Assembly: GCA_024220505.1 (NCBI GenBank)
Contig: JAKZZE010000029.1
Location: 124,001 to 188,000 of the forward strand
Direction: 5' to 3'
From: Rhizopus arrhizus
Taxonomy: Eukaryota; Mucoromycota; Mucoromycetes; Mucorales; Rhizopodaceae
Length of the DNA: 64,000 nucleotides
This document shows, one piece after another, positions 9,109-62,025 of this stretch. Positions within the stretch are counted from its first letter, which is position 1. The number at the start of each line of letters is the position of its first letter. The notes under the pieces are model-generated. The model was not told the DNA's origin, ran no database searches, and saw only the letters and a list, made by a program, of their open reading frames with translations. Made by a program: the position numbers and the translations under genes.

Positions 9109-10249
9109 TACTAGGCAAACTTCTTTGTCGTCAACCATACCCAATTTGACGTCTTGACTTGTGATTCCTTTGGCGTACAAATATGGAGAGTAACACCTTC
9201 TAAATCATTTGATATCTCTGAAGTGCTGAATTTTACATCGCGATGTTGCAAACGGCCAATGTCAGATCGCGGTCTCCCCATAGTATTGATACATGCCAGT
9301 AAGATTACTTTGAGTTATAGTTGTTGAATATTAAGCTCGGCTGTTGGTGACAACTTGTCCTTTATGAATTGAATGAGGAGATTGATATCCCATGTTTCTA
9401 GTTGAGATGCTGTAGGAACTCGTATCTCTGTCTTTCTCTTGACTGTGAAGAATCTTGAAATGTTTTGCTGAGAAGCTATCAGCTTTTGATGTGGATGAAT
9501 ATGTTTGAATACTGATGCAATCGACGAGCGTAAATCATTTAGATATTGATCCGAGAAGTGCTACTTATCCACTAGGAACTGCAAAACATTGTTAGGGCTA
9601 TACTCTTCAGGATCTAGCTCCGGATCTTGAGATCTGCACCAGTTGGACCACGCTCTCCAGCCATTGTTGTATGCCTTGTGTGTACTTTGTCTTGTGGCCT
9701 TCAAAAGAAAAGTTGTTGTCTTTTCGTTTATACTATCGCGTGTCCCGCTTTTGTAGATAAGTGTCATGCGGCCAGAGTCCAGTTGTTGGTGTTCATCAGT
9801 AGCGGTGGTGTCAAGTGTTTCATTCTTAGGATTATTGGGGACCAATATTGGGTGGGCCAATAGGGCGTCACCAATATTGCGCTGTTGATCCTCGACTGTC
9901 GAAACTTGTGAATTACCCTTGGGATCATTTTCCACGGTGGATGCAAGTAAAGTTCCCTCTTCGGCCATCTCTGGCGGAACGCGTCCACCGCTGATGCATC
10001 CGGAACCGGAAGTAGACTCCAAAACTTCGTTTTTGTATTGTGCCTTGCTGCAAAAGTGTCGATCTTCAGAGGAGCCAACTGGAATTGAATCATGTTGAAT
10101 AATCGGCGTGGTAGTGCCGCTTCGTACAGGGGACGTGTCGATCGACTCAGGTGATCTGCTTGTATGTTCTGAGTCCCCGGTGTTAAGGATACATAAGATT
10201 ATAGTCACTTTATTTTAGTAAAAGGAATCAGATATGATCCTGAATAATA

Positions 10250-11904: not shown

Positions 11905-11906
11905 TA

Positions 11907-12480
11907 TGTTGACATAACTTGGAATCATTTATAACATTATTCCCAACACAGATCAATAAAATACTTTGGTTACATTTTTACATTAAGCTTTATTCATATT
12001 AACTTCACATAGTCAAATAAGATGACATGGTTGTAATATAGTTTATTGTTAATATGAGCATGTTGAATAAGGAATGACGATTACTTACCGGATCATCATT
12101 AGTCATGAAAACATTTATCCTGACTGAGATATTATTGTTAACAATGATATCCAATCACGGAACTAAAAGTCTTTATATTCATCCGTACCGTCTCCTTAAA
12201 TAGTTATATATCCAGAGTTATCTGAAACCATCCCAATAGCATAATTGACAATACAAGCTAGGAACAGGCTAAACTAATAATTAGAAATAGTAATCATCTA
12301 TTCTGTCAAGTTGATTATAAATCTGTCCTAATTCTTTATCCGTATCATGTCTATAAATACTCTCACTTTTTACATGTAGAATCGATATCATAGTTATTTT
12401 AACTTAATAAAGAGATACCAAGCTCTAACAGTATTTCTTTATCTTTGATTGCTATATTATATTTACCTAAAACTCCCCTT
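11907..12480 (+). repeat. Putative solo LTR next to element E
   Basis: Begins TGTTGACATAAC immediately after the TA duplicated by element E. It contains tctataaatactc (about 12350) and aataaagagatacc (about 12407), the same promoter and poly(A) order as the LTR at 810-1373, with a similar sequence after the signal. The 3' end and a target duplication could not be located. It may be a diverged member of the gypsy LTR family. Confidence 0.45.
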
Positions 12481-14547: not shown

Positions 14548-16183
14548 CAGTAGGTGAAAAAATATGAGCAACCTTTTGGCAAAATCGACTTTTTTCGCTT
14601 TATCAAAAGGTGCATGCCAACTACCGGCTCGGGACTCCTATGGCATATTTTCGGGGCCATGTGTCTTGAAACAGTAAATGTTTCATGTAGTAATACTGGA
14701 AATTGAGAGAGAGATAAGAATGTGAATTTAAAAATTTGACTTCCGGCCAGCTTAAATTATGTACCGTATTCATATGTTTACACTTAAATCAACAAAGATC
14801 ATATCGGAAGACTATATAGCGTTCTTGTATGGAACTGTGAGTGTTCCTCATTGTATCCATATAAAAGCAAGTGCAACTTCAGGAGCCCTTGGTTTCGTTT
14901 TTTTTGCTCAATTTCTCTCACTACTTCTCATCATCATGCCTAAATCTATACCAATGGAAAAGCAATCCAGAAATAAAAGATATATCACCGAATAGCATGA
15001 AGCTAGAGGATATCGCAGATAAATATTAGGTTCATTCTAGCACAGTTTAAAGATATTCTAGGAAGCTTTTTCCATGAAATTCACACCTGTCTGCTGGAAT
15101 ACATGCTATTGTCTCTTCTGCCATGAAACACTATGTCGAGCTATGTATTATTACTAGTCATCGAACAATAGCGAAAGAGCTATTTAGGGAGTTGGGTAAG
15201 TTTGGTTACTTGTTGATGTACCGTTCAGGAGTAAACGCGCTGAGGTCCATAAACTGCCACCGAGAGCTAAAAAAAAGAAGGCATTTTTAAAAAAGGATTA
15301 TTGAAAAAAGCAGATGACCTGAGCAAAAAGGCATCGCAACTGGTCAAGTCAATAGTGACGACCAGTAGCGTTCTCAGCTGAAGCAAAGACTAGCATCTAG
15401 TGATCAGATGGGGTAAAGCAGTATAGAGTAGTATAAAATGACATTCTGCTCCCTCATCACATCGACATTACAGTAAAGCATAGCAGCGGTAGGACCATCA
15501 TGTGTGACTGCATACTTGCTCAGGGACCAGCTTAGACATGTCAGCTCTATGATGGTAACATAAACTCAACGACTTATTATCATATACTTAGCATTATTTA
15601 CATGAATACGTTAGAGTACCATTATTTGAAGACATCTGATGTATACCTTCAGAATGATAGCGGCATAAAGTATAAATTAAAAATCATAGCTGTATAGATA
15701 CGCGGTATCAGTGTAAGGTATATAAATTATTGGTGGGCTCAAAGTCTGGATTTAAATCATATAAAGCATGTTTAGCATCAGCTCAAACTTAATCTGACAC
15801 CACATGAAGTCGGAGAAAGAGGTGTCAGAAAGCTTTAGCAATTTGTGGATGTAGAGCGAAACAAACTCAATGCAAATGCTTGCAAGAGGTACATCAATAG
15901 TATGCTAGCCAAAGTAGAAGCACTATTTAAAGCAAAGGGAAGATATAGAAAATATTAAATAAACATAGCGAATTTTGAAAAATCATCATTGGTTTTTTTA
16001 TGACTGTCTTTCCCTTTTTAAAAACTTGTACTTCAAGTACAGTCAATCTCTTTAGTATATCATATGTATCTTTGTTGCCCTAATTAGTTTGTGTGATATC
16101 AAAGCTCTGGCGAATATACACACAAAAATAAAAAGATATGAAGACAAATCGAACAGAGGTTGCTCATATTTTTTCACCTACTG
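14548..16183 (+). mobile_element. Tc1/mariner relic G1, 1,636 bp
   Basis: TIRs CAGTAGGTGAAAAAATATGA and complement, TA on both sides. The start of a transposase (MPKSIPMEKQSRNKR) is seen at 14937, followed by stops and shifts. Traces of the C-terminus (around 15880-15957, KGRYRKY-like before a stop) remain. Closely similar to G2 over its whole length, with shared lesions, so the family was already defective when it was copied. Confidence 0.88.
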
Positions 16184-16203
16184 TATATATATATATATAT
16201 ATA

Positions 16204-17872
16204 CAGTGGCTCACAAAATTGTACAAGTGTTTTGCATTTTTTGCTTCAGTAGGATTTATCGACACTAAAACGATAAATAAGCTACAGCATGTTATACATC
16301 ATTCGAACGTATAGCTTCTTGGCGTTTTGCTAATATTATTTAGTCGGCGATAAAATTAGTTTTGATGGAGTTATGACCGTTTACAAATGCCGACTACACT
16401 TGTACAATTTTGGGACCGTTTCAAATATTTCAATATCAGCTTATAATCTTGCTCGCCACAGCGCGTAAGCCACCAGAAAAGATTTTTTTTTATTCTTCAA
16501 TGCTCAAAGTATGTTTTTCTTTCCTTTTTTGCCATTTTACTTACATCTACAGGAGCTAACTGCTATATAAAAGTGTACCAACGTCCAATATGCAACCTAT
16601 CAGTGAAGATCTCCGTAATCGTATCATCAGCTGCTTAAAAAGCGGATACTCTATATCAAAAACAGTAAAAATAACTGGAGCAAGCCGTGGAACTGTTCAT
16701 AATGTTCGAAAAACAATAAAAAACGAAGTAAAGAGCATTAAAGCGGGTCGTCCCAAGTTACTCAGCAGCAGGGATGATCAGTATTTAGTCCGATTGGTAA
16801 CTGTTAAAGGTCAAGATAATGCAGTAGAAGCCAGAAACACACTTGAGAATGACTTGCAAAAGATTGTATCAGCTGAAACAGTTCGAAGATCGTTGCGTAG
16901 GTCTGGTTTAACCTCTTTTGTGAAGCCTCAAAAACCATTGCTTAGTGAAGTAAACAGACGAAAGCGATTGGACTGGGCTCTTAATCACGTTGACTGGACC
17001 ATAGAAGACTGGAAACGCGTGATTTGGTCTGATGAGACTAAAGTTAATCGTTTTGGATCGGATGGTAAGCTTTATGCTTGGAAACAACCAAATGAGAAGC
17101 TTAAAAGAAGGCATGTAAAGCAAACCGTAAAACATGGTGGAGGCTCACTTATGGTTTGGAGCTGTATTAGCTGGTACGGGGATGGGTATATTGTCGACGT
17201 AGGCAAGAATATGGACAAGGGTGTCTATTTATCTGTATTGCAAGATGATTTGGTGAGGTCTATGACCGACTATTGTAAAGAAAATGGCCTGAGAATGACT
17301 GATTTTGAATTTATGCAAGATAACGATCCGAAGCATAAGTCCAAAATCGTATCTGAATGGCTGTCTAAACAGGATTTTACAACAATGGAGTGGCCTCCAC
17401 AGTCTCCAGACTTAAATCCAATTGAAAATATGTGGAATACCTTAAAAAAACGCTTGTTTAAGCAGTACGATTTTCCTCCTATCTCTATGGATGAACTATG
17501 GACTCGTACGTTCGAGACTTGGTACGAAATTACCGAAAAAGAATGACAAATTTATATTGAAACTATGCCTCAACGATGTATTGACATTATAGAAAATAAG
17601 GGTCTTTGGATCAACTATTAGCGCACACTTTTAAATAAAAACCTTATTGTAAAACATCGGTCCCAAAATTGTACAAGTGTAGTCGGCATTTGTAAACGGT
17701 CATAACTCCATCAAAACTAATTTTATCGCCGACTAAATAATATTAGCAAAACGCCAAGAAGCTATACGTTCGAATGATGTATAACATGCTGTAGCTTATT
17801 TATCGTTTTAGTGTCGATAAATCCTACTGAAGCAAAAAATGCAAAACACTTGTACAATTTTGTGAGCCACTG
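16204..17872 (+). mobile_element. Tc1/mariner element H, complete, 1,669 bp, near-identical TIRs
   Basis: Starts CAGTGGCTCACAAAATTG and ends with the complement, inside a (TA)n run on both sides. The two TIRs read identically over about 220 bp, which suggests a recent insertion. The outer site (cacaaaattgtacaagtg) is repeated inverted at the inner edge (cacttgtacaattttggg). Relics G1 and G2 abut the TA runs left and right. Confidence 0.95.
16590..17621 (+). pseudogene. Tc1 transposase of element H, one premature stop
   Basis: Starts MQPISEDLRN, has both HTH regions (GRPKLL linker), and a complete DD34E triad: WSDETKVNRFGSDG, MQDNDPKHKS and PDLNPIENMW. A TGA at 17544-17546 stops it after 318 residues. 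The same frame continues through QIYIETMPQRC to the usual C-terminal end INY at 17621, for a 343-codon gene. The family has Cys at the TGA position (ECQ), so a single base change explains it. The catalytic core is unaffected, so partial function cannot be excluded. A TATA-like box (tatataaaag) lies about 20 bp upstream. Confidence 0.9.
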
Positions 17873-17892
17873 TATATATATATATATATATA

Positions 17893-19529
17893 CAGTAGGT
17901 GAAAAAATACGAGCAACCTTTTGACAAAATTGACTTTTTTCGCTATATCAAAAGGAGCATGCCAACTACCGGCTTGAGACTCCTATGGTGTATTTTAGGG
18001 GTCATGTGTCTTGAAATAGTAAAGGTCTCATGTAGCAATGCTGGAAATTGAGAGAGAGATAAGAACGCGAATTTAAAAATTTGACTTCCGACCAGCTTAA
18101 ATTATGTACGGTAATCATACGTTTACATTTAAGTCAACAAAGAACATATCGGAAGACTATATAGCGTACTTGTATGGAGCTGTGAGTCTTCCTTATTGTA
18201 TTCATATAAAAGCAAGTGCGGCTTCAAGAGCCCTTGGTTTCTTTTTTTTTACTCAACTTCTCTCACTACTTCTCATCATCATGCCTAAATCTATACCAAT
18301 GGAAAAGTAATCCAGAAATAAAAGATATATCACTAAATAGTATGAAGCTAGAGGATATCGCAGATAAATATTACGTTTATTCTCGCACAGTTAAAAGGTA
18401 TACTAGGAAGCTTTTTCCATGAAATTCACACCTGTCGGCTGGAAGACATACTATTGTCTCTTATGCCATGAAGCACTATATCAAGCTGTGTATTATTACT
18501 GGTCATCGAACAGTAGCGAAAGAGCTATTCAGGGAGTTAGGTAAGTTTGGTTACTTGTTCATGTACCATTCAGGAGTAAATGCGCTGAGATCCATAAAGT
18601 GCCACCGAGAGCTAAAAAAAAGAAGGCATTTTTAAAAATGGATCATTGAAAAAAGCAGATGACCTGAGCAAAAAGGCATCGCAACTGGTCAAGTCAATAG
18701 TGACGACGAGTGGCGTCCTCAGCTGAAGCAAAGATTAGCATCTAATGATCGGATGGAGTAAAGTACTATAGGGAAGTATAAAATGACATTTTGCTCCCTC
18801 ATGACATCGACATTACAGTAAAGCACAGCAGCCGTAGGACCAACATATGCGGTCACATAACTACTCCGGGACCAGCTTAGACATGTCAGCTTTATGGTGG
18901 TAACATAAACTCAACGGCTTGTCTGCATATACTTAGCATTATTTACATGTATACGTTAGAGTACTATTATTTGAAGACGTCCGATGTATACCTTCAGAGT
19001 GATAGCGGCGTAAAGTATAAATTAAAATTCATAACTCCATAGGTACGCGGTATCAGTGTAAGGTATATAAATTATTGGTATGCTCAAAGTCTGGATTTAA
19101 ATCATACAAAGCATGTTTGGCATCAGCTCAAACTTAATCTGACACCACATGAAGTCGGAGAAAGAGGTGTCAGAAAGCTTTAGCCATTTGTGGATGTAGA
19201 GCGAAATAAACTCAATGCAAATGCTTGCAAGAGGTATATCAATAGTATGCCAGCCAAAGTAGAAGCACTTCTTAAAGCAAAGGGAAGATATACAAAATAT
19301 TAAATAAACATAGCGAATTTTGAAAAATCATCATTGGCTTTTTTATGACTGTCTTTCCATTTTTAAAACGCTTGTACTTCAAGTACAGTCAATCTCTTTA
19401 GTGTATTATATGCACTTTTGCTATCTTAGTTAGCGTATGTGATAACAAAGCTCTGGCGAATGTACACACGAAAATAAAAAGATATGAAGACAAATCGCAC
19501 AGAGGTTGCTCGTATTTTTTCACCTACTG
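17893..19529 (+). mobile_element. Tc1/mariner relic G2, 1,637 bp
   Basis: Same TIRs and orientation as G1, and similar from end to end. The N-terminal MPKSIPMEK at 18281 is followed by a TAA. It shares several stops and shifts with G1. Starts directly after the TA run that follows element H and ends in another TA run. Confidence 0.88.
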
Positions 19530-45978: not shown

Positions 45979-47497
45979 CCTTTCTTCTTCTTCTTTTCTC
46001 TTTCTCTTATCATCAAAAGGTTCGCTCATGCTCAGTTAGCTCCAAAGTACAAGATTCACAACTACTTCTTTTGTCATTTTTGGGATCTAAGGATTCTAAT
46101 GAAGTCTACAAATCTTCCAAGTAAATGTAACAACATTATGACTTTGTTCAACTTGACAACCTTTATTATAGATGTCTTCAATTCTTATAGACTATATATT
46201 CTGTTCTTAATAAAAATAAAGAAAGAAAGACATTGCTTCAGTCGAATGTGAAGATTAGGCTAATCCTCGGAATGTGCTTAGATCTGCAACTAATTGCTCC
46301 TGTAAGAGGTCAATACATTTGATCAAGCTGTACTATAGCCTTATGGCAATAGGAATTAAATGAGCTCAATTTGGTTTATATATGTCAAGTACCAATGATA
46401 TGGACACAATGCTCATAAAAGAGTAAGCAGCACAAGGAGGTTGAAGACACTGTTGTGTCATTGTGTCATTATGTCATTGATTCATAGCGTATAACATGGA
46501 GACAAAAGGTATTGTGGTTTATATGCAGCAGCATTTTTACAATGACATTCATAGTAATAGATAGTAATAAATAATAATGGATAGTAATAGATAATAATGG
46601 ATAGTAATAGATAGATAATGGATAGTAATAGATAGATAATGGAAAGACAATGTGTTTCGAATGGATACATATTAAGGTATGACCAATGATATACAAATAT
46701 AATTTTTATTACAAAACTAATCTATGACTAGATTAGTTTTTTTAGGGTATCAAAAGGAATGGAATGGATGGAAGCTATTGGTAGCGGCAACCATGCTTAA
46801 AATATCTACGCTTCTTCACCAAGCAAGCATCAGATCCTTCTTCTCTTTCTTCTTCCTCATCTTCTCTTTGCTTGCGCTTCTTGCTTCCTTGCGCCTCCTT
46901 TTCTTTCTTTTCTTCTTCCTCTTGCTTCTTCTTTTCTTCTTCTTCTTCTTCTCGCTTGCGCTTCTTCTTTTCGTCAAGCAGGCGTGCTCCTTCATCCAGC
47001 CTTCTTGCCAACGCCTGCTTTTCCTCCTTGCTCATCCTTTGTGGCTTAGGACGAAGCAAGTACTCCAACCGATCCACCTCATCTACACACTTGTTCTTGA
47101 ATCTATGAATGCAAATAGGTATTGGTAAGATGTTCTTATTAACGTTTATACACAAAAACCAAGCTTACCGGTTGCTTAGGGCGACCAAACGCAAAGAAAC
47201 AATATCCTTGACGCGACCGCCATCCAACTCACTGACCATAGGACGGCTGTTGAAGCCATCCAACTTTTTCTTTGTTATACGCAGTACTTCGTTAACTGCT
47301 TGTAATTTGCGAGCTAGCTTTCTTGTCATGTTTGTAAAGTAATATACTTTTTGAAAGATGGAAAAGAAAGAACAGTTGGACAACACTTTTTATGTTTATG
47401 TCGCGCAATCAAAAATACCAATCATAAACGCCAAAATTCAAAAGTTGGATATAAGGTTTGATGTCCCCTTTTATGGTAATAATGGATAAGGATTTTA
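45911..47497 (+). repeat. Repeat block B (left), inverted copy at 56786-58371
   Basis: From 45911 to about 47405 the block matches 56880-58371 in reverse complement with no length difference over about 1.5 kb, so the duplication or conversion is recent. Similarity then falls and is lost at about 47497. Holds the whole P1 gene and a minisatellite of ataatggatagtaatagat-like units at 46555-46640. Confidence 0.92.
46775..47329 (-). CDS. P1: unrecognised charged coiled-coil protein (left copy)
   Basis: Start ATG at 47329 (MTRKLARKLQAVNEVLRI). One 66-bp intron (47103-47168, GTAAGC to TTCATAG) gives a 162-residue protein. Residues 1-85 look helical with a basic start and VKDIVSLRLVALSNRFKNKC. From about residue 95 it is a run of Lys, Arg and Glu (KKKRKREEEEEEKKKQEEEE), a likely single alpha-helix or coiled coil and nuclear signal, ending KKRRYFKHGCRYQ. 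No known family recognised. A conserved intron and an exact copy at 56953-57507 argue that it is a real gene. Divergent from P2 with about 540 bp between starts. Confidence 0.7.
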
Positions 47498-47869: not shown

Positions 47870-48238
47870 ATGATCTTCTTTGAATTGCTTTTCGCAATTG
47901 TGCTCGTCTTTTCTGCCGTCTGCGCAGCCTCTCTTTTTGTTCTCGCTGGGGAAGAAACTTCTCGTGGTGTTGTTGGTCCTCGGGCCATGCCTGTTCCTGC
48001 TGTTCTGGTTCCCGTTGCTGCTGTTCTGGTCCCCGTTGCTGCTGGTCACGCGGTGGACCAAGTCGTGCCTGTGTGGACGGCACTGGATGATGCGGCTCAT
48101 CCAGTTAACGATGATCAAATCGTACCCACTCTGTTTCAACAACAGGTGGATTACAATGATGAACAAGTGGTTCCGCTCTGGTTTCAACAACCAGAGTTGC
48201 CGTCGGAATCAGATGAAGAAGATCAGGCTGTGCCTTGA
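47870..48238 (+). CDS. P2: short protein with four D-x-x-V-P motifs and a hydrophobic N-terminus (left version)
   Basis: 122 residues. Residues 1-27 (MIFFELLFAIVLVFSAVCAA start) are hydrophobic, a possible signal peptide or membrane anchor. Residues 41-58 repeat AVLVPVA twice. Four copies of an acidic motif follow: DQVVPVW (63-69), DQIVPTL (82-88), EQVVPLW (98-104) and the C-terminal DQAVP (118-122). The start at 47870 is supported by the aligned start of the homologue at 56312. Much richer in GC than its flanks. No family recognised, no dibasic processing sites between repeats. Confidence 0.65.
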   Translation: MIFFELLFAIVLVFSAVCAASLFVLAGEETSRGVVGPRAMPVPAVLVPVAAVLVPVAAGHAVDQVVPVWTALDDAAHPVNDDQIVPTLFQQQVDYNDEQVVPLWFQQPELPSESDEEDQAVP

Positions 48239-49307
48239 TTTTGTATAAATAAAGCTTTTTTTTTTACCTCATTTATTGTCTTTGTTTCTAGTTCTTTATG
48301 TTTATTGATATTACTGAAAAGGTTGGTCATTCATAATTACTCGCGTTTGTTTACCTGAAATGATGCAATAGTCTGGTGTCACGAGCGCAATAAACGGTAA
48401 AAATCAGCGGAATTGAATCTAGTGGTTTATGTCACAGCATCCCCTTTGACACTCATACAATTGATAAAGCAACAAAATAGTCTAAATAAGTTATGTACAT
48501 CAATAGTTTTAATTATGAACTAGTATCATCTTATAAATAACTTGGAATGATTTAAAGCTGCTTCGTGACTGTATATCATTGTTCGATAGCTCAATATAAC
48601 ATACCGAACATATTTAATACACTTGTAATTTAAAATATAAAACTTCCATCAAAAACAGTCTAATGTATTGTGAGTGACAAAGTTCCATTGCTAATTATTA
48701 TATAGCTTAAACAGAAACATTTTGGTATGAGGCTACGACTACAAAATTAAGCATATAAATCTTATAATCAACAATACAATAACGATGATCAAATTCATGT
48801 AACAATGAATGGGGATATTTATGACTATTAAAGCATAATATGAATTTGTTGCTTAGCTTATATTTTGCACGTTCATATAACCTACCAATATTGAGCACAC
48901 ACAGTCCAAAGTTCAATAACACTCACTATAATCAAGTGTAGCTTTTAATTAGTATCCTCACAACATTTTATGTTTCATTTTACTACTATTCATTCAGTAC
49001 ACCGAACGAAGCATATAGAGAAATCCTGATTATTTCTTTTTTTTCGTGAGTTATAAAACATTATGACATTCTAGCCATACGATATGCCCTTAATTAACAA
49101 ACACCAAAAACAGCTATTCCCAACAGTCAAAGCATCAACAGTAAAGAATATGTAACAAAGCAATAAATTTATTCCTTTTGTGATTTGTTCATTTGGTTCC
49201 TTACTGAAATACCATCGTGCTCTCCTTGGCCATATAGTATACTTTTCACATATTTGTACAGTTTGTGGAATATTTACAGGAGACCAGATGCAAACATGTC
49301 GATAGAT
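48239..49307. other. AT-rich part of the core, no counterpart in the second locus
   Basis: No gene recognised. No matching sequence was found beyond the ends of the duplicated blocks at 56786 or 60626. Confidence 0.5.
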
Positions 49308-50269
49308 TTCAAGCAATATCAAGAATGTAAATGAGCTAAGATTCCGTCCCTCATAAACTCCTCTTTCAAATATTTTTATTGCTAAATAGTCTTGCTTCAC
49401 ACTTGATTAAGGCTACAGCTCAACCTATTTCAAGAAACGTGTTAATAATAAAAGGAGTAAACTAGATATACATTGAATGAAACTAGATTTGTCACCAAGC
49501 AATAAAAGAATAGCACAGAAGAGAACATAGCATAGAAAGAACAACAAGATATGATATGTTCACAAAGTATCACTTGATGCTTCTTCATATCCAATTTCAT
49601 ACAAAGGAATGAGTAGATAAAGGACAAGGTAATCCTCTTTGATTTGATATCTTTTTGGCAAAAGTCATCATTTTATTCCATTCCTTCTTCTCTATTGTAC
49701 TTGACATGATTCATGCTAGGGGAAATAAAAGGCGTTGGTTATTTCTAGTAATAAAGTGACATATGAAGTAGACTTGACTTACATTCCATAAAAGACTGTA
49801 GCATCATCATTATGCAACACTGAATCCTAGGATATTAATTCTGGATCTATAGAGCATTATTACACTTTTCGGAGACCCTGTGATTCTAAATCTTTTTATA
49901 TGCTTCCTTGTCAACTGAGAGTGATGACTAGGTCAAAGTAGAATGATCATGTAAAACCCTAGGACTTGTGCTTCATTGGTTCTAAGGACGAATTGACTAA
50001 TTTAGTATAACAACGAGCTTTGTCGTATAGTTACTTACTGGTTATGTTTCAATATTATGACGATAAAGGATAGAAAATGATTGAAGATACTGGTTTGTTT
50101 TAGATTTTGACTGATGAATGACATGATAAAAGCTTGAAGAGTGAGAGAAAAACAGATTCTCATGGTCAAAAATGTAACAAACGGACTATTTTGCAGGAGT
50201 TTTTTTTTGTTAATTTCTTGTCATCGCGTCATACCAACACAGAGTAAGTTTTGATAAGACCAAAAAATG

Positions 50270-50690
50270 TATAAAAGGGAGCCAGATCCGATATATTTTT
50301 TCTTTCTCTACCAATCACGACAGCACAGTAAGTCAGCAACACAACACACCAACAACACAGTAGACCAGCAACAAAGTAGATCAGCAATATAGTAGATCAG
50401 CAATATAGCAGATCAGCAATAGTGTAGATCAGCAACACTGAGAGAGTTACAGCAATACAACTCTACACCTTTACCAGCTCAGCAGGGGTTCTTCGATTTA
50501 TTGCTTACGCTTTATCTGATTCTCCCCTTTTTGGAAAAAAGAACGTAGAAGGGCACCTATTCGACATGGCCTCCACGTGGCGGTGCCTGGAAACATGTCT
50601 TTACAGTAAAGACATGGCTAACAATGTCGACTTTAGTACATGTACTTTTATATATATCCTATGTAATAAAATCATTCTTTGTCTTTCTCT
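50270..50690 (+). ncRNA. Short non-coding transcription unit carrying an HDV-like ribozyme (unit 1)
   Basis: A TATA box (tataaaaggg, 50270) lies about 280 bp before the ribozyme. The leader has tandem copies of a GTAGATCAGCAATATA-like unit (50330-50440). AATAAA is found at 50665-50670, about 35 bp after the ribozyme. No credible coding frame lies between promoter and signal. The TATA region (tataaaaggnagagcca-like) resembles that of the unit at 61751. Transcript ends are inferred, not seen. Confidence 0.6.
50551..50629 (+). ncRNA. HDV-like self-cleaving ribozyme, copy 1
   Basis: 79 nt fitting the nested double pseudoknot of hepatitis delta virus-type ribozymes. P1: GGGCACC 50551-50557 with GGTGCCT 50582-50588 (7 bp). 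P2: CGACAT 50562-50567 with ATGTCG 50624-50629. P3: GCC 50569-50571 with GGC 50579-50581, 7-nt L3 TCCACGT. P1.1: CC 50573-50574 with GG 50589-50590. P4: 50594-50603 with 50607-50616, loop CAG. J4/2 GCTAACA with the expected catalytic C at 50618. Cleavage is predicted just 5' of G50551. The fold, lengths and J4/2 all agree with the family. Confidence 0.88.
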
Positions 50691-51452
50691 CTGTCTCTCT
50701 GTCTCTCTGTCTCTCTGTCTCTCTGTCTCTCTGTCTCTCTGTCTCTCTTTCTCTCTTTCTCATGTTACTTACATTGTTTATTATATTCTTTGGCTTCTTT
50801 CATGTCTTCAATCAAGTCCACTAGCTTCATATACATATATATATCGATCATCATCATCCTTAGTGTACAAAGGAAGAGAGCTGAAATAGATTTGTATAAT
50901 ACTATGTAAATATTGAGACAAAGTACCAACCATATACCCTTTGTAGCCTCAGTCCTATTACCTTTTACAAATAGTATGATCATAACTGTTGATCTAAAGT
51001 ATACTTTGCTATTCTTTCTTGGTTGAGCTTTCATTGTTCATTCACCATTACTTCATTATTCATTCGTTATTCATTCATTACTTGTTATAACAATGATGTT
51101 GTCAGCAGAGAAAGAGAGTGTTCTTGTGAGTGTACAAAAAAAAAACATATGCCAGCCAATATTCTCTGTTGATGAACGAAAAGTATTCAAATAAACCATG
51201 AAAGAAGCTTCCTTATCCTCTTAGAGATATAAGTAAAGTAATAGAATATGTTGTCAGAATGACTTACATTATGTTGTCCATTCCTTCTAGATTGAGCCAT
51301 CTATTCAACTTTTTCCTTCACATGAAGTAGATCTGGACGACATTAGGACAAGCAATTCCACTTTGTAACACAAAAGTATATATATTTGACAAGTACTTAC
51401 GAAGTGAATAGAAAAGAAAGAGAAAGGGAAAGAGAGAGAGAGAGAGAAAAAG

Positions 51453-53590
51453 GAAAGAAGAAAAAGAGAGAACAAAGAAATAGGATCGACAACAATGTGC
51501 CTTAATTGATTTCATTGTCCGTCAATGACAGATAAGATCACGTGAAGGATACTGACCTTGCCGGATATCAGTTTATCCATGACCGTACTTGACCTTATTT
51601 CCATTTATGGGTATCCTTATTTTCCTCCCTTTTCTTGGTCATTCTTTAGGTTACAAAGACACTTTTCTTCACATCCTCTAGTCACTGTGCCAGAATAGTT
51701 TAGAATGGAGAACATGGCTTTGTTTGTGTTTTTGCTTTTTTTTTTATAGACTAATTAGTTTACATCGGAATGCTTGATTCACTAATGATAAAGCTTTACA
51801 GTATCTTATAAAAACCCCTCTCAAACAGCCTTTTGTGTACATGAAAAGCAATTAAGCAGCATATAGAAATAGCATATAGGAATAACATATAGAAATAACA
51901 TATAGAAATAACATAGAGAAATAGTACAAGGAATGTCTTTGCAAATGGGGATTTATTAAAAAAGATATAGATTGATCAAGTATAAGACCTTAAGATTGTC
52001 ACTGAACAGTCTCATAGTAACTGACCCCACTGTCTTATTACTTGTTCCATCACTTCTTACCTTGCTTGACATACATGAATAATAAGCATGTATAGCATGG
52101 CTATGTCCATTATAGGCAATAGAGGATAAGCTATACACGATGACTTTTGTCTATTACTGTATCATATCTTGTCATGTAAACTTGCCATTGGATGATCAGC
52201 ATTGATGTTGAATTGTGAGTAACTGGTTGTCATGGTGAAATTATGTACACATAGTCTTGTATCTCTCCTAATTTCATAGTATTGCCATAGTAAGTGGATC
52301 TTGACTAGATCCATACATATACATATATATATATATATACCCATGGTTGATCTACCACACAATCACTTTCACAAGCACAGTCCTCTTTCTCTCTCTCTTT
52401 CTCTCTCTCTTCCAAATAAACCATTCCTTTGCTGTCTTCTTGCTCTTGTTTTTCATGTCTCTGCTCTCTTTCTTTCTTAGATAGTTTGTCCTTTACTCTA
52501 CTTGGATTCAAAAGCATACAGAATTCTATCTATGATCCATGACTATTTCTTTGTTTATAATGATATAGCACATACTTTCATCATCATCATCATCATCTTT
52601 TTCTTTTTCTTCTTCTCTTTCTTCTTCATAGCGTTATCCATTCATACTATTTCCTTTCTATTCACTATTATTCCATCTCCTACTTTTGTTGACTGGGATT
52701 GCACCATGCTTAAGGTATTGTCTACTACTATCTCTCTGTTCTCTATACTTCTATTTCTATTTTTATTGCTTGTTTTTTATTTACTTCAAATTGTGTGGTG
52801 ATTTCAGTAGACAAGCGTCTGTATTCCTGAACTAAGGCTTTTCTATCGCTCCTCTTTCTTTTTCCTTCTCATTCCTCTTTGCTTGATGTGTAGTTACTAG
52901 TCTGTTTGTTGAGCTTCTCTAAACTGCTTTTCGTATAGGAAGAATAGGTCTGGTAACATCTTTCATAGACTTGCTTTCGTCGATTGTTTGCTTGTTTTCA
53001 ACTGTTGACAGATTAATGGAAAGAAGATCCTTTAGAGATGTCTATGGCTACACTTGACTGTTTATGTCTTTGGCTGTAAAGTAAGCTTTTTGCTTGTGTA
53101 AAAAGAACATGGGATAAACACGCATGGTAAAGAAGAAAAAAGAGAGAGAAAGGAGCAAATAAAGACGTATTACTAAGCCATCTTTGTGCAACTCCATCAT
53201 TTCAACATCAAAGGTAATCCAATAAATACAAAGTCTCTTCCTCTTCCTCTTCTCTTCCTCTTCTCTTTATTCATTTATTGATAGATCGTTTGTTTAAAGC
53301 ATCGTCTTGTATCAAGTCATGTACATACAATGACTAAACATTTACAACTGTCTTTTCCCATTTTCATCATCTTGTGTCACTTACCTTGACTTGACCTACT
53401 CTACACATATTCACCTCCTGAATAGCACTGTCCATTGATGCATAGTCAACTACCAGATATACTTCTCTTATAGTCCTTCCTTTAACTATTGATTTTGCTT
53501 TTGTTTCGATAGATAAAGAATTGATGCTATCATGACCTTATTTCCTCTTTAGATCCACTACTTGTCTTTTATTGTCTGTAATCATTGCTC
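51453..53590 (-). repeat. Right arm of the 2.1-kb inverted repeat
   Basis: Inverted copy of 43905-45978. Differs by substitutions and by an expanded tandem repeat at 51850-51920 (units like acatatagaaata) that the left arm has about once. The (AT)n run near 52320 and the A/G-rich stretch mirror the left arm. Confidence 0.9.
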
Positions 53591-56027
53591 TACCTTTTTC
53601 TTTCCTTTTTCCATTCCTTTGCAATCATCAAATAAGGTAGTTGGATCACGGAATGATTGATATTTCTACATCCTACCCTACTATGCACAAGTGTCACTTT
53701 ACGTTCCATATTGTATACTGGATGGAATAGAGAGCATAGTGAATCTAGGAATATCATATATTCATCTGGCTCTCGTTCATTTCTTTTCTTCTTTTATTAC
53801 TTTACTAAAGCTAGAGGTTGTAAAGCTGTTTGTTTGACTTTTTTTTGTTTTTTTTTTTTTTTCATTCTTTCCTAGATTAATCGGGGTAATCTAAAACTGC
53901 ATTACTTTCCACTTTGACCTCTTGTTTCTTTTTTATTTCTTCTTTCTCTATATCATTTCTATTTTTGTTTATTTTATTTAGTGTCATACTGTCGACTGTA
54001 TAGTAACTGAACTAAGAAAAGCAAAAGAGAGAGAGAGAGAGAAAAAAAAGACAAAAAAGGGAACCTTGCTCAAGGCCTCGCGCCAATTTTATCTCCGTCC
54101 CTGGGCGCACACTTTCCTTTTTTGATGCCAGTCTTAGGAATGTCCTATCAGTCATGCCAAAGCTCCTCTATTTCACATGCTCATAGATGATACAAGTATC
54201 TTGTTGTCATTGTAATGACTAAAATAATAATATAATAGTATGAAAGAGACAAAACGATGGTTAAGATGGTAAACTGACAAGGGTTGTTTGGTTGGAATGC
54301 TTTGAGAGACGATCAAGAGGAATTCGTAAAAAAAAATAAAAAGAATAAAAAAAAGGCCAACCAAGCAACATAATATTATTGAATAGCATAATAGTTAATG
54401 GAAAGAGATGTCAGTAGAGTATTGAGTTCATTTTTTTGTTCACTTTGAGATTACATTCTGTTCAACGATTATTAGCATTAGCTTTCGAAATTAACTAGTT
54501 AACCTTGCCATTCTACTTGGCCGTTCAACAAACTATCTTTTATCGTTGACAGAACGTGTAGAAAGTATAAAAATGACACGCTTATAAAGAGTCATAAGAT
54601 AAGAAAGAAGAGAGATTTATTTTCAATTCGATAACAAAAATAACAGTAATAAAACAAGAGGTCTTTATTTATGTATAACAATAGTAATAGCAATAATAAT
54701 CATATCTCTATCTTACCCTTTCATGACAGGTTTAGCCGTATTTCATTCTTAAAGAAAGAAATACGTTGCCCAGAGATAACCGCGTGGAGGTACTGTCATT
54801 TCTATCTCCTCTCTTTATCCCGTTTAACGTCAGAAAGAGACCCCCGCACCCCCAGACAGATGGGAGGGAGACAAACGACGGAATCCTTATCTAATAGACT
54901 GTAATAGCGTTCAAGAAAGATACATGATTATTTTTACCCAGTTGCTTGCAAAGTAGGATGAATACCAAGGAAAGGAATGAAGAAAGAAAAAAAGAAAGAA
55001 AAAAAAAGGAGGGGGATAAAAGGTTATCTTTTATTTATATTTACGTTTCGTGGCGTGTGAGGTATTTTTTTATTTCATGAGAAACGCTTGTGATTATATT
55101 TTTGAATTGATGCTCTGATGCTCATACCTTACAAAGCATAGCGTACATTAATGAAATAAAAACCATCAGTTCATTTCTTCCTTTTCCCTTTCCCTCTCTT
55201 TCTTTGTTTCAATTGTAAATAATACTCTACAAAAGACGTTTTTAAGTCTTTAAAACAAACTAATAGTCTGTTATCTTATTTGTTTTAACGATAATGTGGC
55301 CGAAACAGGAAATTATTATTTTGTAACCAACCAATATTAAAATATGAAATATTAAAAAAATAAAGTCAAGCTTCATATTTATATCAGAAAGTCATTAATA
55401 TCATTTTTCTACAAATAATCCTAAGACCAATATAATGTATTTGCTTTCTCATATTTCATTGTGATAGGACAAGAGCATCAATAAATTTAAAGTTTTAACT
55501 GAAACAACCTCAATAGCAAATTATCGTGCTTTCCTCTTCTTCCTCTTCTTCCTCTTCTTTCTGTTAAATATATATCAATAAGCAAGATATTAGATAGCAG
55601 AAATAGAGTAACTATAGTCATCAACATGTTATGTTTCATTCAGTCAGTATCTTGAAAAGTTCTCAAAATATAAACATTATTTTTCGTTCGAAAATGTCGT
55701 AAAACCATTTTTTTAATACTCCACCATCTTTGTGTCATGTAAATAATAAATAAGAGCGAAATAACATGCTACAGCTGTATTGGAGGAACAAGAAATAATG
55801 TAATGTCCTATGGCAACAAAATAGTATGCCGTTCTAATCATTATTGAACTTGAAAGATTTATTTGTCATCACCATAGTAACGTTTGTTAACCTATGTCTT
55901 ATTTTAAAATTTCAAAGAACAGCTGATTACAATTTAAAAAACCATATTAAAATAAGATAAAAAATTGAATATGAAGGCTTTGAAGAAAGTATTTACAATT
56001 TATTTTTAATTAAAATCAAAAAAAAAC
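53591..56027. other. 2.4-kb region without a recognised gene
   Basis: Pyrimidine runs (53838-53862), an (AG)n tract at 54025-54042, and a short GC-rich island at 54060-54110 (tgctcaaggcctcgcgcc). No convincing reading frame, tRNA or repeat partner was found. Confidence 0.45.
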
Positions 56028-56312
56028 CTAAGGCACAGTCTGGTCATCTTCAGGCTCCATTGCCAGCTCCGTTGCCAGCAACCAGAGCGGAGCCACTTGA
56101 TCATCCTCGTCGGCTTCATCACTTGCCGACGGAACAGCACCACTTCCAAGACCACCCCAGACGGGAACACTGTGATCACTCGTCGGATAAATCACAACGT
56201 CAAACACATCCACAAAACGCACCAAAAGCACCTCATCTTCGTGTATTTCCTGTGCATTGTGGCTCACAGGGAACACGGGGACAGCAGAATCTTCTCGATC
56301 TGGGTTAACCAT
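56028..56312 (-). CDS. P2-like protein with D-x-x-V-P motifs (right version)
   Basis: 94 residues, start ATG 56312. Four motifs match P2: DSAVPVF (8-14), DHSVPVW (46-52), DQVAPLW (71-77) and C-terminal DQTVP (90-94). Unlike the left version it has no hydrophobic N-terminus: it starts MVNPDREDS. The sequence outside the motifs is hardly alignable, yet the promoter elements, position and divergent orientation to P1 are kept. It ends PEDDQTVP against EEDQAVP in the left protein. Confidence 0.65.
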   Translation of the reverse strand: MVNPDREDSAVPVFPVSHNAQEIHEDEVLLVRFVDVFDVVIYPTSDHSVPVWGGLGSGAVPSASDEADEDDQVAPLWLLATELAMEPEDDQTVP

Positions 56313-56785: not shown

Positions 56786-58371
56786 TAAAATCCTTATCCA
56801 TCATTACCATAAAAGGGGACATCAAACCTTATATCCAACTTTTGAATTTTGAAGTCTTTGGTTGGTGTTTTAATTGCGCGACATAAACATAAAAAGTGTT
56901 GTCCAACTGTTCTTTCTTTTCCATCTTTCAAAAAGTATATTACTTTACAAACATGACAAGAAAGCTAGCTCGCAAATTACAAGCAGTTAACGAAGTACTG
57001 CGTATAACAAAGAAAAAGTTGGATGGCTTCAACAGCCGTCCTATGGTCAGTGAGTTGGATGGCGGTCGCGTCAAGGATATTGTTTCTTTGCGTTTGGTCG
57101 CCCTAAGCAACCGGTAAGCTTGGTTTTTGTGTATAAACGTTAATAAGAACATCTTACCAATACCTATTTGCATTCATAGATTCAAGAACAAGTGTGTAGA
57201 TGAGGTGGATCGGTTGGAGTACTTGCTTCGTCCTAAGCCACAAAGGATGAGCAAGGAGGAAAAGCAGGCGTTGGCAAGAAGGCTGGATGAAGGAGCACGC
57301 CTGCTTGACGAAAAGAAGAAGCGCAAGCGAGAAGAAGAAGAAGAAGAAAAGAAGAAGCAAGAGGAAGAAGAAAAGAAAGAAAAGGAGGCGCAAGGAAGCA
57401 AGAAGCGCAAGCAAAGAGAAGATGAGGAAGAAGAAAGAGAAGAAGGATCTGATGCTTGCTTGGTGAAGAAGCGTAGATATTTTAAGCATGGTTGCCGCTA
57501 CCAATAGCTTCCATCCATTCCATTCCTTTTGATACCCTAAAAAAACTAATCTAGTCATAGATTAGTTTTGTAATAAAAATTATATTTGTATATCATTGGT
57601 CATACCTTAATATGTATCCATTCGAAACACATTGTCTTTCCATTATCTATCTATTACTATCCATTATCTATCTATTACTATCCATTATTATCTATTACTA
57701 TCCATTATTATTTATTACTATCTATTACTATGAATGTCATTGTAAAAATGCTGCTGCATATAAACCACAATACCTTTTGTCTCCATGTTATACGCTATGA
57801 ATCAATGACATAATGACACAATGACACAACAGTGTCTTCAACCTCCTTGTGCTGCTTACTCTTTTATGAGCATTGTGTCCATATCATTGGTACTTGACAT
57901 ATATAAACCAAATTGAGCTCATTTAATTCCTATTGCCATAAGGCTATAGTACAGCTTGATCAAATGTATTGACCTCTTACAGGAGCAATTAGTTGCAGAT
58001 CTAAGCACATTCCGAGGATTAGCCTAATCTTCACATTCGACTGAAGCAATGTCTTTCTTTCTTTATTTTTATTAAGAACAGAATATATAGTCTATAAGAA
58101 TTGAAGACATCTATAATAAAGGTTGTCAAGTTGAACAAAGTCATAATGTTGTTACATTTACTTGGAAGATTTGTAGACTTCATTAGAATCCTTAGATCCC
58201 AAAAATGACAAAAGAAGTAGTTGTGAATCTTGTACTTTGGAGCTAACTGAGCATGAGCGAACCTTTTGATGATAAGAGAAAGAGAAAAGAAGAAGAAGAA
58301 AGGAAAGAAGAGAAAGAGAGAACAAAGAAATAGGATCGACAACAATGTGCCTTAATTGATTTCATTGTCCG
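56786..58371 (-). repeat. Repeat block B' (inverted copy of block B)
   Basis: Matches 45911-47497 in reverse complement; coordinates pair at a constant sum (104282) from P1 through to the right end, so no indels. Contains an identical P1 gene. Ends with the 68-bp sequence shared with the repeat arms. Confidence 0.92.
56953..57507 (+). CDS. P1: unrecognised charged coiled-coil protein (right copy)
   Basis: The predicted protein is the same, residue for residue, as the one at 46775-47329. Exon 1 is 56953-57113, the intron 57114-57179 (GTAAGC to TTCATAG) and exon 2 57180-57507; 162 residues. The splice junction falls within an Arg codon (SNR/FKN). Its divergent partner is the right P2 version. 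Confidence 0.7.
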
Positions 58372-58411
58372 TCAATGACAGATAAGATCACGTGAAGGAC
58401 ATTGACCTTGT
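58372..58411. repeat. 40-bp spacer joining blocks B' and C'
   Basis: TCAATGACAGATAAGATCAC and what follows to GACCTTGT are the first 40 bp of the right inverted-repeat arm (from 51522). It lies between two inverted copies of the 68-bp shared end, so 58304-58480 can fold into a long hairpin. Confidence 0.85.
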
Positions 58412-59244
58412 CGGACAATGAAATCAATTAAGGCACATTGTTGTCGATCCTATTTCTTTGTTCTCTCTTTTTCTTCTTCCCTTTTTTCTCTCTCTCTCTC
58501 TCTCTTTACCTTTCCCTTTCTTTTCTATTCACTTCGTAAGTACTTGTCAAATATATACTTTTGTGTTACAAAGTGGAATTGCTTGTCCTAATGTCGTCCA
58601 GATCTACTTCATGTGAAGGAAAAAGTTGAATAGATGGGTCAATCTAGAAGGAATGGACAACATAATGTAAGTCATTCTGACAACATATTCTATTACTTTA
58701 CTTATATCTCTAAGAGGATAAGGAAGCTTCTTTCATGGTTTATTTGAATACTTTTCGTTCATCAACAGAGAATATTGGCTGGCATATGTTTTTTTTTTGT
58801 ACACTCACAAGAACACTCTCTTTCTCTGCTGACAACATCATTGTTATAACAAGTAATGAATGAATAACGAATGAATAATGAAGTAATGGTGAATGAACAA
58901 TGAAAGCTCAACCAAGAAAGAATAGCAAAGTATACTTTAGATCAACAGTTATGATCATACTATTTGTAAAAGGTAATAGGACTGAGGCTACAAAGGGTAT
59001 ATGGTTGGTACTTTGTCTCAATATTTACATAGTATTATACAAATCTATTTCAGCTCTCTTCCTTTGTACACTAAGGATGATGATGATCGATATATATATG
59101 TATATGAAGCTAGTGGACTTGATTGAAGACATGAAAGAAGCCAAAGAATATAATAAACAATGTAAGTAACATGAGAAAGAGAGAAAGAGAGACAGAGAGA
59201 CAGAGAGACAGAGAGACAGAGAGACAGAGAGACAGAGAGACAGA

Positions 59245-59664
59245 GAGAAAGACAAAGAATGATTTTATTACATAGGATATATATAAAAGTACATGTACTA
59301 AAGTCGACATTGTTAGCCATGTCTTTACTGTAAAGACATGTTTCCAGGCACCGCCACGTGGAGGCCATGTCGAATAGGTGCCCTTCTACGTTCTTTTTTC
59401 CAAAAAGGGGAGAATCAGATAAAGCGTAAGCAATAAATCGAAGAACCCCTGCTGAGCTGGTAAAGGTGTAGAGTTGTATTGCTGTAACTCTCTCAGTGTT
59501 GCTGATCTACACTATTGCTGATCTGCTATATTGCTGATCTACTATATTGCTGATCTACTTTGTTGCTGGTCTACTGTGTTGTTGGTGTGTTGTGTTGCTG
59601 ACTTACTGTGCTGTCGTGATTGGTAGAGAAAGAAAAAATATATCGGATCTGGCTCCCTTTTATA
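59245..59664 (-). ncRNA. Non-coding ribozyme transcription unit (unit 2, inverted copy of unit 1)
   Basis: Inverted copy of 50270-50690 with the TATA box near 59660, leader tandem repeats at 59490-59600, the ribozyme and the AATAAA complement near 59265. Confidence 0.6.
59305..59383 (-). ncRNA. HDV-like self-cleaving ribozyme, copy 2
   Basis: Identical in sequence to copy 1, on the minus strand: 5' end GGGCACC at 59383-59377, P2 3' strand ending at 59305. It was carried along by the block C duplication, so it is not independent evidence for the fold. Confidence 0.87.
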
Positions 59665-60626
59665 CATTTTTTGGTCTTATCAAAACTTACTCTGTGTTGG
59701 TATGACGCGATGACAAGAAATTAACAAAAAAAAACTCCTGCAAAATAGTCCGTTTGTTACATTTTTGACCATGAGAATCTGTTTTTCTCTCACTCTTCAA
59801 GCTTTTATCATGTCATTCATCAGTCAAAATCTAAAACAAACCAGTATCTTCAATCATTTTCTATCCTTTATCGTCATAATATTGAAACATAACCAGTAAG
59901 TAACTATACGACAAAGCTCGTTGTTATACTAAATTAGTCAATTCGTCCTTAGAACCAATGAAGCACAAGTCCTAGGGTTTTACATGATCATTCTACTTTG
60001 ACCTAGTCATCACTCTCAGTTGACAAGGAAGCATATAAAAAGATTTAGAATCACAGGGTCTCCGAAAAGTGTAATAATGCTCTATAGATCCAGAATTAAT
60101 ATCCTAGGATTCAGTGTTGCATAATGATGATGCTACAGTCTTTTATGGAATGTAAGTCAAGTCTACTTCATATGTCACTTTATTACTAGAAATAACCAAC
60201 GCCTTTTATTTCCCCTAGCATGAATCATGTCAAGTACAATAGAGAAGAAGGAATGGAATAAAATGATGACTTTTGCCAAAAAGATATCAAATCAAAGAGG
60301 ATTACCTTGTCCTTTATCTACTCATTCCTTTGTATGAAATTGGATATGAAGAAGCATCAAGTGATACTTTGTGAACATATCATATCTTGTTGTTCTTTCT
60401 ATGCTATGTTCTCTTCTGTGCTATTCTTTTATTGCTTGGTGACAAATCTAGTTTCATTCAATGTATATCTAGTTTACTCCTTTTATTATTAACACGTTTC
60501 TTGAAATAGGTTGAGCTGTAGCCTTAATCAAGTGTGAAGCAAGACTATTTAGCAATAAAAATATTTGAAAGAGGAGTTTTATGAGGGACGGAATCTTAGC
60601 TCCTTTACATTCTTGATATTGCTTGA

Positions 60627-61750
60627 AATTTGTTATATGCTTACAACTGGCCTCTTGTTAATTTTCCATAAATCACGCAATTACAGGAAAGTACTATTCT
60701 GTGGTTAAAGAGCGTAATTAGACTCTGGCGGGATCAAGATGAACAAATTACGAAATAATGCGCTTGTTGCTTTACTATATGTTCTTTTGTTTTTTGCTGG
60801 TATTATAGCTGATATGGATAGCTGCCTTAGTATTTATTGATGAAGGGGTATCCTGCCACCGCAATGTTATAATATACTATAGAGCACAAAAAATCAAAAA
60901 ACTTTCATATGCTATGTTCAGTGTGCAGCATGAATAGTAATAAAATGTAACATATTGTGCTATAACGACATAAAAGTATATTGTATCTAGGAAATGCTAT
61001 TAAGCTTGGTATTGTGTAATTTTGGTATTTTTAGGCTGTGAATTTGTAAAATTTGAGCTGAGCAGCAAAGTCATGTAGTGCATTATTAATCATAAACATT
61101 CTCATTTATCGTCATATAAACTTGAATATCGCTATTATAGTGTTGATTTTAAGACTATGTATGCTTAATTTTGTAGTCATAGTCTCATGTCATAATTTCT
61201 AGGTTTAAAAATACATTAAAAATTAGATATAAAGCTTTGTCCTAATGAAATATATCCAATTGCTTTTAGAAAAGAATAATTTTATAACTGCTCATAATCT
61301 GCTTTGAATTAAAATTTATGTTATTATTGCTAGGTAAATATTCAATTTTTGTATTTATTAAAGAATGATTCTTTTGTATAATGAAATATATTGAACCGTT
61401 TATATCATATTGTCTACAAAAAACTATAATTTCTATCATCCGAAGCCATCTCAGACGAATTTTATCGAATAAGGTTTGTGGCTTTAGCTATTAGTCCAAA
61501 AGCTGTCTTATTTTTGTACGGAGCGCCGCATTAAATGAATGGAAGGGAGTATTAATATGGACTATGCTGTTGGATTATTTAGAACAAGGAGCAATACTTA
61601 TTTTTGAACAAGGAATGAAGGAAAAGAAAATTACTGAATTAGTACTCGTATGTAACCAAAGGAACAAATGAAATCCTTTTGCTGCAGGTGACTTTGGTTT
61701 GACTGTTAAGAAAGTGACCTCTTTTCAAATAATTTTTCTAAAGAAAAAAG
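60627..61750. other. AT-rich region, no gene recognised
   Basis: Unique sequence between block C' and the third ribozyme unit. No open frame or repeat partner of note. Confidence 0.45.
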
Positions 61751-62025
61751 TATAAAAGGAGGAGCCAAATTACAGAATTTTTTGTTTCTTTACTGGTTTC
61801 GTCTGTTCATTGTTCAGGCCTACTCGATGGAAAAGGTTTAGCGGCTGACGCCGGAGAGTAGCCACCAATGTCGATTTCCTTTACAGTATAAACAAACGAA
61901 TGCGAAGGGCACTTAAAGACATGGCCTCCACGTGGCGGTGCCTGGAAACATATTTTCATTTTGAAAATATGGCCAAGAATGTCAACTTTTTTTTTTATAT
62001 TAAATAAAAATGAAAAATCACTTTT
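61751..62025 (+). ncRNA. Non-coding ribozyme transcription unit (unit 3, diverged)
   Basis: TATAAAAGGA at 61751, a leader of about 155 bp unlike that of unit 1, the ribozyme, then AATAAA at 62004-62009. The order promoter, leader, ribozyme, poly(A) signal is the same as in unit 1 although only the promoter edge and the ribozyme are alike. The leader contains a stem ggcctactc (61818) with gagtagcc (61855). Confidence 0.6.
61907..61983 (+). ncRNA. HDV-like self-cleaving ribozyme, copy 3 (diverged)
   Basis: 77 nt with the same fold as copy 1. P1: GGGCACT 61907-61913 with GGTGCCT (the last pair now U-G). P2: GACAT 61918-61922 with ATGTC 61979-61983. P3 and L3 are unchanged (GCC-TCCACGT-GGC). P4: 61949-61958 with 61962-61971; three pairs differ from copy 1 and all three are compensated (G-C to A-U, C-G to U-A, U-A to C-G). 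J4/2 is GCCAAGA with the catalytic C at 61973. Compensatory change in P4 is strong support for the structure. Confidence 0.88.

Follow-up and report, generated by a model that had tools for sequence, protein, structure and literature searches.

HDV-like ribozymes in a repeated family of putative non-coding genes of Rhizopus arrhizus

Ribozymes and neighboring features of the window

The stretch of Rhizopus arrhizus DNA analyzed here, hereafter the window, spans 64,000 nucleotides (contig C22, 124001-188000) and contains four HDV-like ribozymes, with class A represented twice and classes C and D once each (Table 1). Inspection of the sequence together with a fold descriptor revealed that bases 50551-50630 of the forward strand form a complete HDV-like nested double pseudoknot. 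P1 comprises 7 bp (50551-50557/50582-50588, GGGCACC/GGUGCCU) and begins with a G-U pair; P2 also comprises 7 bp (50561-50567/50624-50630, UCGACAU/AUGUCGA), the 3-bp P3 (50569-50571/50579-50581, GCC/GGC) carries a loop L3 of sequence UCCACGU (50572-50578), P1.1 is CC/GG, P4 has 10 bp (50594-50603/50607-50616), and the equivalent of the catalytic C is base 50618, within GGCUAA. The L3 residues and the catalytic C are positions that we take to be conserved in HDV-like (drz) ribozymes. Cleavage is predicted directly 5' of G50551.

A sequence-only reading of this locus had drawn a 7-bp P1 starting with G, P1.1, P3, a 7-nt L3, P2, P4 and a catalytic C in J4/2, and both sequence and descriptor find each element at the place it was given; the proposed start of the ribozyme stands, and its end, put at 50629, is better placed at 50630. 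The broader claim of an HDV-like fold in a non-coding setting of a fungal genome was borne out by relaxed Rfam searches, covariation and the descriptor, and the search with HDV models at relaxed threshold that had been suggested as a check returned RF02682 exactly at the 50551 ribozyme, scoring 28.2 bits with an E value of 0.0033 when 601 bases were searched. A poly(A) signal does lie nearby, the surrounding repeat was indeed duplicated whole, and, as had been noted, no retrotransposon ORF adjoining the ribozyme could be recognized by eye in the part of the window whose ORFs were inspected. The observation is confirmed, and the description of the ribozyme as part of a duplicated non-coding fungal repeat is supported. 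Absent from that description were the three other ribozymes of the window, the division into four paralogous classes and the promoter type common to classes A and C.

Table 1. Positions of the ribozymes and associated features in the window.
Feature	Position	Strand	Basis or remark
Duplicated block with class A copy 1	48676..51525	+	92% to 58408-61241, inverted (61241-58408)
ATGTAACNAA box, class A copy 1	50172..50181	+	98 bp 5' of TATA box
TATAAAAGG box, class A copy 1	50270..50278	+	281 nt 5' of predicted cleavage site
Putative transcribed leader, class A copy 1	50300..50550	+	transcription inferred
HDV-like ribozyme, class A, copy 1	50551..50630	+	sequence, Rfam relaxed, covariation, descriptor
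AATAAA poly(A)-type signal, class A copy 1	50665..50670	+	
AATAAA of class D	54664..54669	-	
HDV-like ribozyme, class D	54722..54809	-	RF02682, covariation, descriptor, Rfam whole-window
Duplicated block with class A copy 2	58408..61241	-	
HDV-like ribozyme, class A, copy 2, inverted	59304..59383	-	genome search, descriptor
TATAAAAGG box, class A copy 2	59656..59664	-	plus ATGTAACNAA box at 59753-59762
TATAAAAGG box, class C module	61751..61759	+	plus ATGTAACNAA box at 61650-61659 and AATAAA at 62003-62008
Class C leader	61782..61890	+	one of three discrete types
HDV-like ribozyme, class C	61907..61986	+	genome search, descriptor, Rfam whole-window

Other features of the window include four Tc1-like transposons whose inverted ends measure 216-262 bp (3897-5555, 7510-9110, 10247-11907 and 16157-17919), the last three of which contain ORFs matching Pfam DDE_3 and HTH_Tnp_Tc3_2. 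A two-exon gene (the intron inferred by eye) for a lysine/glutamate-rich protein of ~162 aa occurs twice, at 46775-47329 (-) and 56953-57507 (+), in blocks that are 99.2% identical; the protein has nine relatives, the eight named ones being from R. arrhizus or R. delemar, and is 81-91% identical over its full length to six proteins of these species. Short acidic proteins encoded at 47870-48238 (+) and 56028-56312 (-) have similar C-terminal ends (EEDQAVP and EDDQTVP) and no Pfam match. The proteins encoded between the ribozymes that were scanned with Pfam gave no match above cut-off. Additionally, a sirtuin encoded in the window matches R. stolonifer at 85%, R. microsporus at 87% (over 69% of its length) and one R. 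arrhizus protein at 78%. At the junction of the duplicated blocks lies a 229-base inverted repeat (58279-58507, 85%), RNA from which would form a long hairpin and which attracts sub-threshold plant-microRNA matches in Rfam.

Evidence for the ribozyme fold

The fold descriptor matched four sites in the window, namely the four ribozymes, compared with a single match in 300 dinucleotide-shuffled windows. For covariation, 11 of the 14 distinct ribozyme sequences found in the genome were aligned; the three left out (L014, L035 and L036) carry changes in loops or joining segments, or combinations that the aligned rows already contain. Across the 11 rows, 96.4% of cells were paired, and pairing fell to 33-44% when the partner strand was slid by 1-3 bases. 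Both-side changes occurred in 13 of 28 base pairs, carried by 25 cells, a result equaled by none of 500 shuffles, although kin sequences can beat such shuffles, so that the covariation is strong and yet provides no probability. These changes are distributed over four of the five helices. A measure based on further pair types was unexceptional (117 of 500 shuffles). Comparison of class D with class A gives an indication of how far the helices have diverged with pairing intact: changes on both sides affect four of seven pairs in P1, three of seven in P2 and one of three in P3.

The 7-bp P1, the 3-bp P3, the CC/GG of P1.1 and GGC[U/C]AA are kept in all 32 copies, and by eye all seven within-class substitutions in stems preserve pairing. 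Where pairing does break, it does so in the outermost part of P2 (classes B and C) and in P4 (classes B and D); in the window the descriptor matches P4 of classes A, C and D as an uninterrupted helix 8-10 bp long, and the class B P4 has one mismatch or bulge. The pair at the cleavage site is G-U in ten of the aligned rows and G-C in one, and all 11 rows leave column 18, between P2 and P3, unpaired. L3 starts with UCC in 30 of the 32 copies and with ACC in two, both class A copies on contig C25, where this U-to-A change at the first L3 base may reduce activity. With the nested double pseudoknot, elements in the right order, the catalytic C and covariation, these sequences have the structural features of HDV-like (drz) ribozymes.

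That the fold arose by chance, or is an inactive relic spread by segmental duplication, would accord with the location of the compared copies in duplicated blocks and with Rfam scores below threshold. The double changes in four helices, the intact core of every copy and the near absence of descriptor matches in shuffled sequence all argue against it, and we regard this explanation as extremely improbable.

Rfam gave no match in the window at gathering level, and five further loci likewise lacked any HDV match; scores were 24.4-35.7 bits against a cut-off of 44 for RF02682 (HDV-F-prausnitzii), and 28.7 against 50 for RF00094, which matched class D only. In a relaxed search of the whole window RF02682 gave E values of 0.35, 0.02 and 0.0064 for classes A, C and D, respectively, and four of the eight matches listed were plant-microRNA matches to the long inverted repeat, so that Rfam alone is not decisive. 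RF01787 had no match in the whole genome. By fold, the Rhizopus copies are genuine HDV-like ribozymes, and self-cleavage is predicted for them.

Both the HDV-like fold and the presence of HDV-like ribozymes in fungi were already known. The Rhizopus ribozymes resemble drz ribozymes such as RF02682 in the 7-bp P1, P1.1, the 3-bp P3, P2, P4, the L3 consensus UCC.CG and the GGCUAA with its catalytic C, and differ from RF02682 in scoring below gathering level, in the unpaired nucleotide between P2 and P3 and in their promoter and poly(A) context. The main text of PMC5640933 describes 230 examples of fungal HDV variants from 26 species, two of which were shown to cleave as two-piece constructs, and does not contain the words Rhizopus or Mucor. 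HDV-like ribozymes, including the two fungal ones tested by others (PMC5640933), are known to cut directly ahead of P1 and to leave a 2',3'-cyclic phosphate and a 5'-hydroxyl. The published fungal variants share with ours a fungal host and the extra nucleotide between P2 and P3, but as described there they carry a loop-E motif in P4 and a C-G pair at the cleavage site, whereas the Rhizopus ribozymes have a hairpin P4 and G-U or G-C (PMC5640933).

A four-class family with TATA boxes in most copies and poly(A)-type signals

Searches of the genome (50.3 Mb in 41 contigs) revealed at least 32 ribozyme copies in classes A to D, all on four contigs (C22, C24, C25 and C26); these counts are lower bounds. 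A query of 100 bases around the ribozyme resulted in 41 genome matches, comprising 28 ribozymes (13 A, 4 B and 11 C) and 13 antisense matches of 23 bases to P4. A loose genome search with RF02682 added the four class D copies and found three known class C copies again, all seven below cut-off and at a threshold at which the model also matches in 8 of 14 control genomes. Within the ribozyme itself, class C copies share 79-82% identity with class A. A core sequence pattern recovered 30 of the 32 ribozymes and one extra site (C35:12319), and the reversed pattern recovered none. The sole match to this pattern in viral contigs (L058) was set aside as apparently coding DNA with no HDV fold recognizable by eye.

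The copies follow a recurrent layout. A divergent class C module lies 2.5-2.7 kb from 11 of the 13 class A modules, and in 8 of the 13 a class D (~4.6 kb) or class B (~6.7 kb) ribozyme follows further on along the same strand; on C24 and C25 the units are arranged as inverted pairs, and the window starts with an A that lacks its C partner, followed by D, A and C. Those units that were compared consist of duplicated blocks in mosaic arrangement, with Tc1-like elements and pieces of retrotransposons close by.

One way to read the same-strand succession of A and D or B, ~4.6-6.7 kb apart, is as a retrozyme-like mobile RNA, with the two ribozymes cutting out a linear RNA that would be circularized and mobilized; the unit on C26, where a direct repeat of ~650 bp (89%) flanks the C-A part, could be taken in the same sense. 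However, the two cut sites are separated by a poly(A) signal, and the two ribozymes differ, so the excised piece would not be a repeat monomer. Among the units compared, moreover, the ribozymes on C26 lie outside the direct repeat and the corresponding ends of the C24 unit are inverted repeats, and the retrozymes described in passages of PMC7761336 carry hammerheads. A mobile RNA of this kind is therefore, in our judgment, very unlikely.

Upstream of the ribozymes, TATAAAAGG occurs three times on the two strands of the window, at 50270 (+), 59664 (-) and 61751 (+), and each occurrence heads a class A or C ribozyme from 156-281 nt 5' of it. ATGTAACNAA occurs six times, three of them 5' of ribozyme modules, where it sits 98-101 bp above each of the three TATAAAAGG TATA boxes. 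Genome-wide, TATAAAA is found 154-313 nt above the cleavage site in all 24 class A and C copies and GTATATAAGG 871-900 nt above it in all four class B copies, while AATAAA follows the cleavage site within 94-114 nt in all 24 A and C copies and within 140-154 nt in all eight B and D copies; copies within a class are related, and these counts therefore amount to about four independent cases. The chance level for AATAAA in the window is 14% of 100-nt stretches. Class D has neither box nearby and shows only a weak TATA-like stretch. In alignments of promoter regions, A against C exceeded 500 of 500 shuffles, class B was weakly similar to A and C (4 and 32 of 500 shuffles, respectively, reached its score), and class D showed no similarity to A or C in the same shuffle-tested alignment. 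The order TATA box, ribozyme, AATAAA is, like the fold, the covariation and the copy number, a computed property of these sequences.

The ribozymes could instead be left over from non-LTR retrotransposons such as R2 or L1Tc, in which a ribozyme at the 5' end defines by its cut where the element RNA starts. According to passages of PMC8256844, this is a well-known setting of HDV-like ribozymes, and L1Tc also combines a promoter with a ribozyme. The compared units adjoin transposon pieces, and on C24 a reverse-transcriptase ORF (RVT_1; L054, 4970-6115, +) is found ~8 kb away from a ribozyme of class C. The 10-kb C24 stretch with this ORF, however, contains no ribozyme match above noise (13.9 bits, E 0.49), and no reverse-transcriptase ORF was recognized by eye 3' of the ribozymes in the listed part of the window. 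In R2 and L1Tc the ribozyme lies at the 5' end of the element, whereas in Rhizopus a poly(A) signal follows and an element body was not found (compare passages of PMC8256844): the homology of the two class A copies of the window extends ~1.9 kb 5' of the cut and does not begin there, module searches recovered classes B and C over the ribozyme only, and no downstream body common to classes A to D could be seen by eye. With homology reaching past the cut and no element body recognized 3' of it, we give the retrotransposon 5' end little credence.

Leaders and the proposed role of cleavage

Between promoter and ribozyme lies a leader whose conservation differs from that of its surroundings in class C. 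Among the 11 copies of this class, variable columns make up 0-12% of promoter bins and 3-7% of ribozyme bins, as opposed to 29-62% in the leader, which varies about as much as distant upstream flank. This variation takes the form of three discrete leader types with 99-100% identity within each type; the leader in the window has eight genome matches, each within a class C module. Class A leaders vary strongly by way of 16-bp repeat units, which in the first class A copy form a tandem repeat at 50334-50438 whose copy number differs among copies. In class A, conservation between -840 and -400 roughly equals that of the ribozyme, so that conservation alone indicates no special constraint there.

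We tried several explanations of the leaders and rejected them. Leaders copied from other genes were not found, in that the queries from the three C types and from class B match modules only, with no genome match outside them. Coding leaders were dismissed on the grounds that no class has a long reading frame: ATG-started frames are absent in 10 of 13 class A leaders and encode 4 aa in the other three (the leader of the first copy contains no ATG), and they encode 4 aa in all four class D leaders, up to 47 aa in class B and 4-7 aa in class C, except for frames of 35 aa and 48 aa that enter the ribozyme. Comparison of translations across leader and ribozyme with proteins resulted in at least 32 weak matches among 8000 candidates scored, none convincing and most likely stemming from a low-complexity tail. 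A GTAAGT at 50329 had suggested an intron and is missing in two class A copies (L017 and L021).

In dinucleotide-shuffle tests the leaders folded no better than shuffles in five of six cases and the sixth was borderline (z -0.51 for B, -0.27 for A, -0.10, -1.85 and +2.01 for the three C types, and 0.05 for D), and the released RNA accordingly shows little sign of structure. Shorter pieces of the C leaders compared with plain letter shuffles gave z values of -0.16, +0.67 and -3.9, a hint of a hairpin confined to C leader type 3.

Because the ribozyme follows a promoter-headed leader and precedes a poly(A) signal, its cut would strip the poly(A) end from the leader. Each module may be read from its own promoter, at the TATA box in A and C and at a similar box farther up in B, with transcription running through a leader without a long frame and then the ribozyme to a poly(A) signal close by. 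The transcribed ribozyme would fold and cut 5' of G50551 through attack by the neighboring 2'-hydroxyl, which would release a leader RNA with a 2',3'-cyclic phosphate end and no poly(A) tail, and the remaining piece would be a 5'-hydroxyl ribozyme-poly(A) stub. The free leader may then act as an RNA, or the cut may prevent export and stabilization of the transcript.

We therefore propose, with confidence slightly better than even, that these ribozymes belong to promoter-driven non-coding genes and serve as 3'-end makers or tail removers; from the arrangement of the modules we infer transcription, cleavage in the cell and a role of the product, and most likely the ribozyme separates a short non-coding transcript from its poly(A) end. 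A further step, which we offer as a tentative suggestion that could well be wrong, is that the modules form a dedicated Rhizopus family of promoter-driven non-coding genes in which built-in HDV-like ribozymes, instead of poly(A) tailing, form the 3' ends, yielding tail-less RNAs with a fast-changing leader and a constant promoter and ribozyme.

The main rival to this role is transcript removal: what counts would be the activity of the promoter as such (for chromatin or replication), self-cleavage by the ribozyme would rid the cell of unwanted transcripts before they accumulate, and the leader would be filler. Such a scheme would be consistent with class C, in which promoter and ribozyme are conserved around a leader as variable as far flank, with leaders that show no special fold in most tests and four leader queries that match modules only, and with the divergent arrangement of C and A modules; the discrete types of C leaders, nearly identical within each type, could nevertheless reflect function or recent copying, and we consider transcript removal rather unlikely.

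To our knowledge, no function has been found for many of the HDV-like ribozymes that occur neither in viruses nor in retrotransposons. In Rhizopus, at least 32 copies with intact cores, from four diverged classes, have their parts in a common order (TATA box in most, leader, ribozyme, poly(A) signal), which suggests one testable role, that of taking the poly(A) end off a non-coding transcript, so that the purpose of such fungal RNA cutters becomes testable as well. The four classes are ready natural variants for cleavage assays, and cut ends could show in existing Rhizopus RNA-seq.

The nearest parallel in proposed function is provided by Theta ribozymes, HDV-like ribozymes at the 3' ends of tRNAs in gut phages, which are likewise postulated, in passages of PMC10879173, to generate the 3' terminus of the RNA that precedes them; there the preceding RNA is a phage tRNA, in contrast to the promoter-headed non-coding leaders of Rhizopus (PMC10879173). 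No report of promoter-headed ribozyme genes in Rhizopus, or of HDV-like ribozymes in this context, was found in the literature accessible to the search.

Finally, AAUGUCGAY, which closely resembles the 3' strand of P2 in class A, is present in the leader just 5' of the ribozyme in three class C copies (L027, L030 and L034) and could compete with P2 as an alternative pairing.
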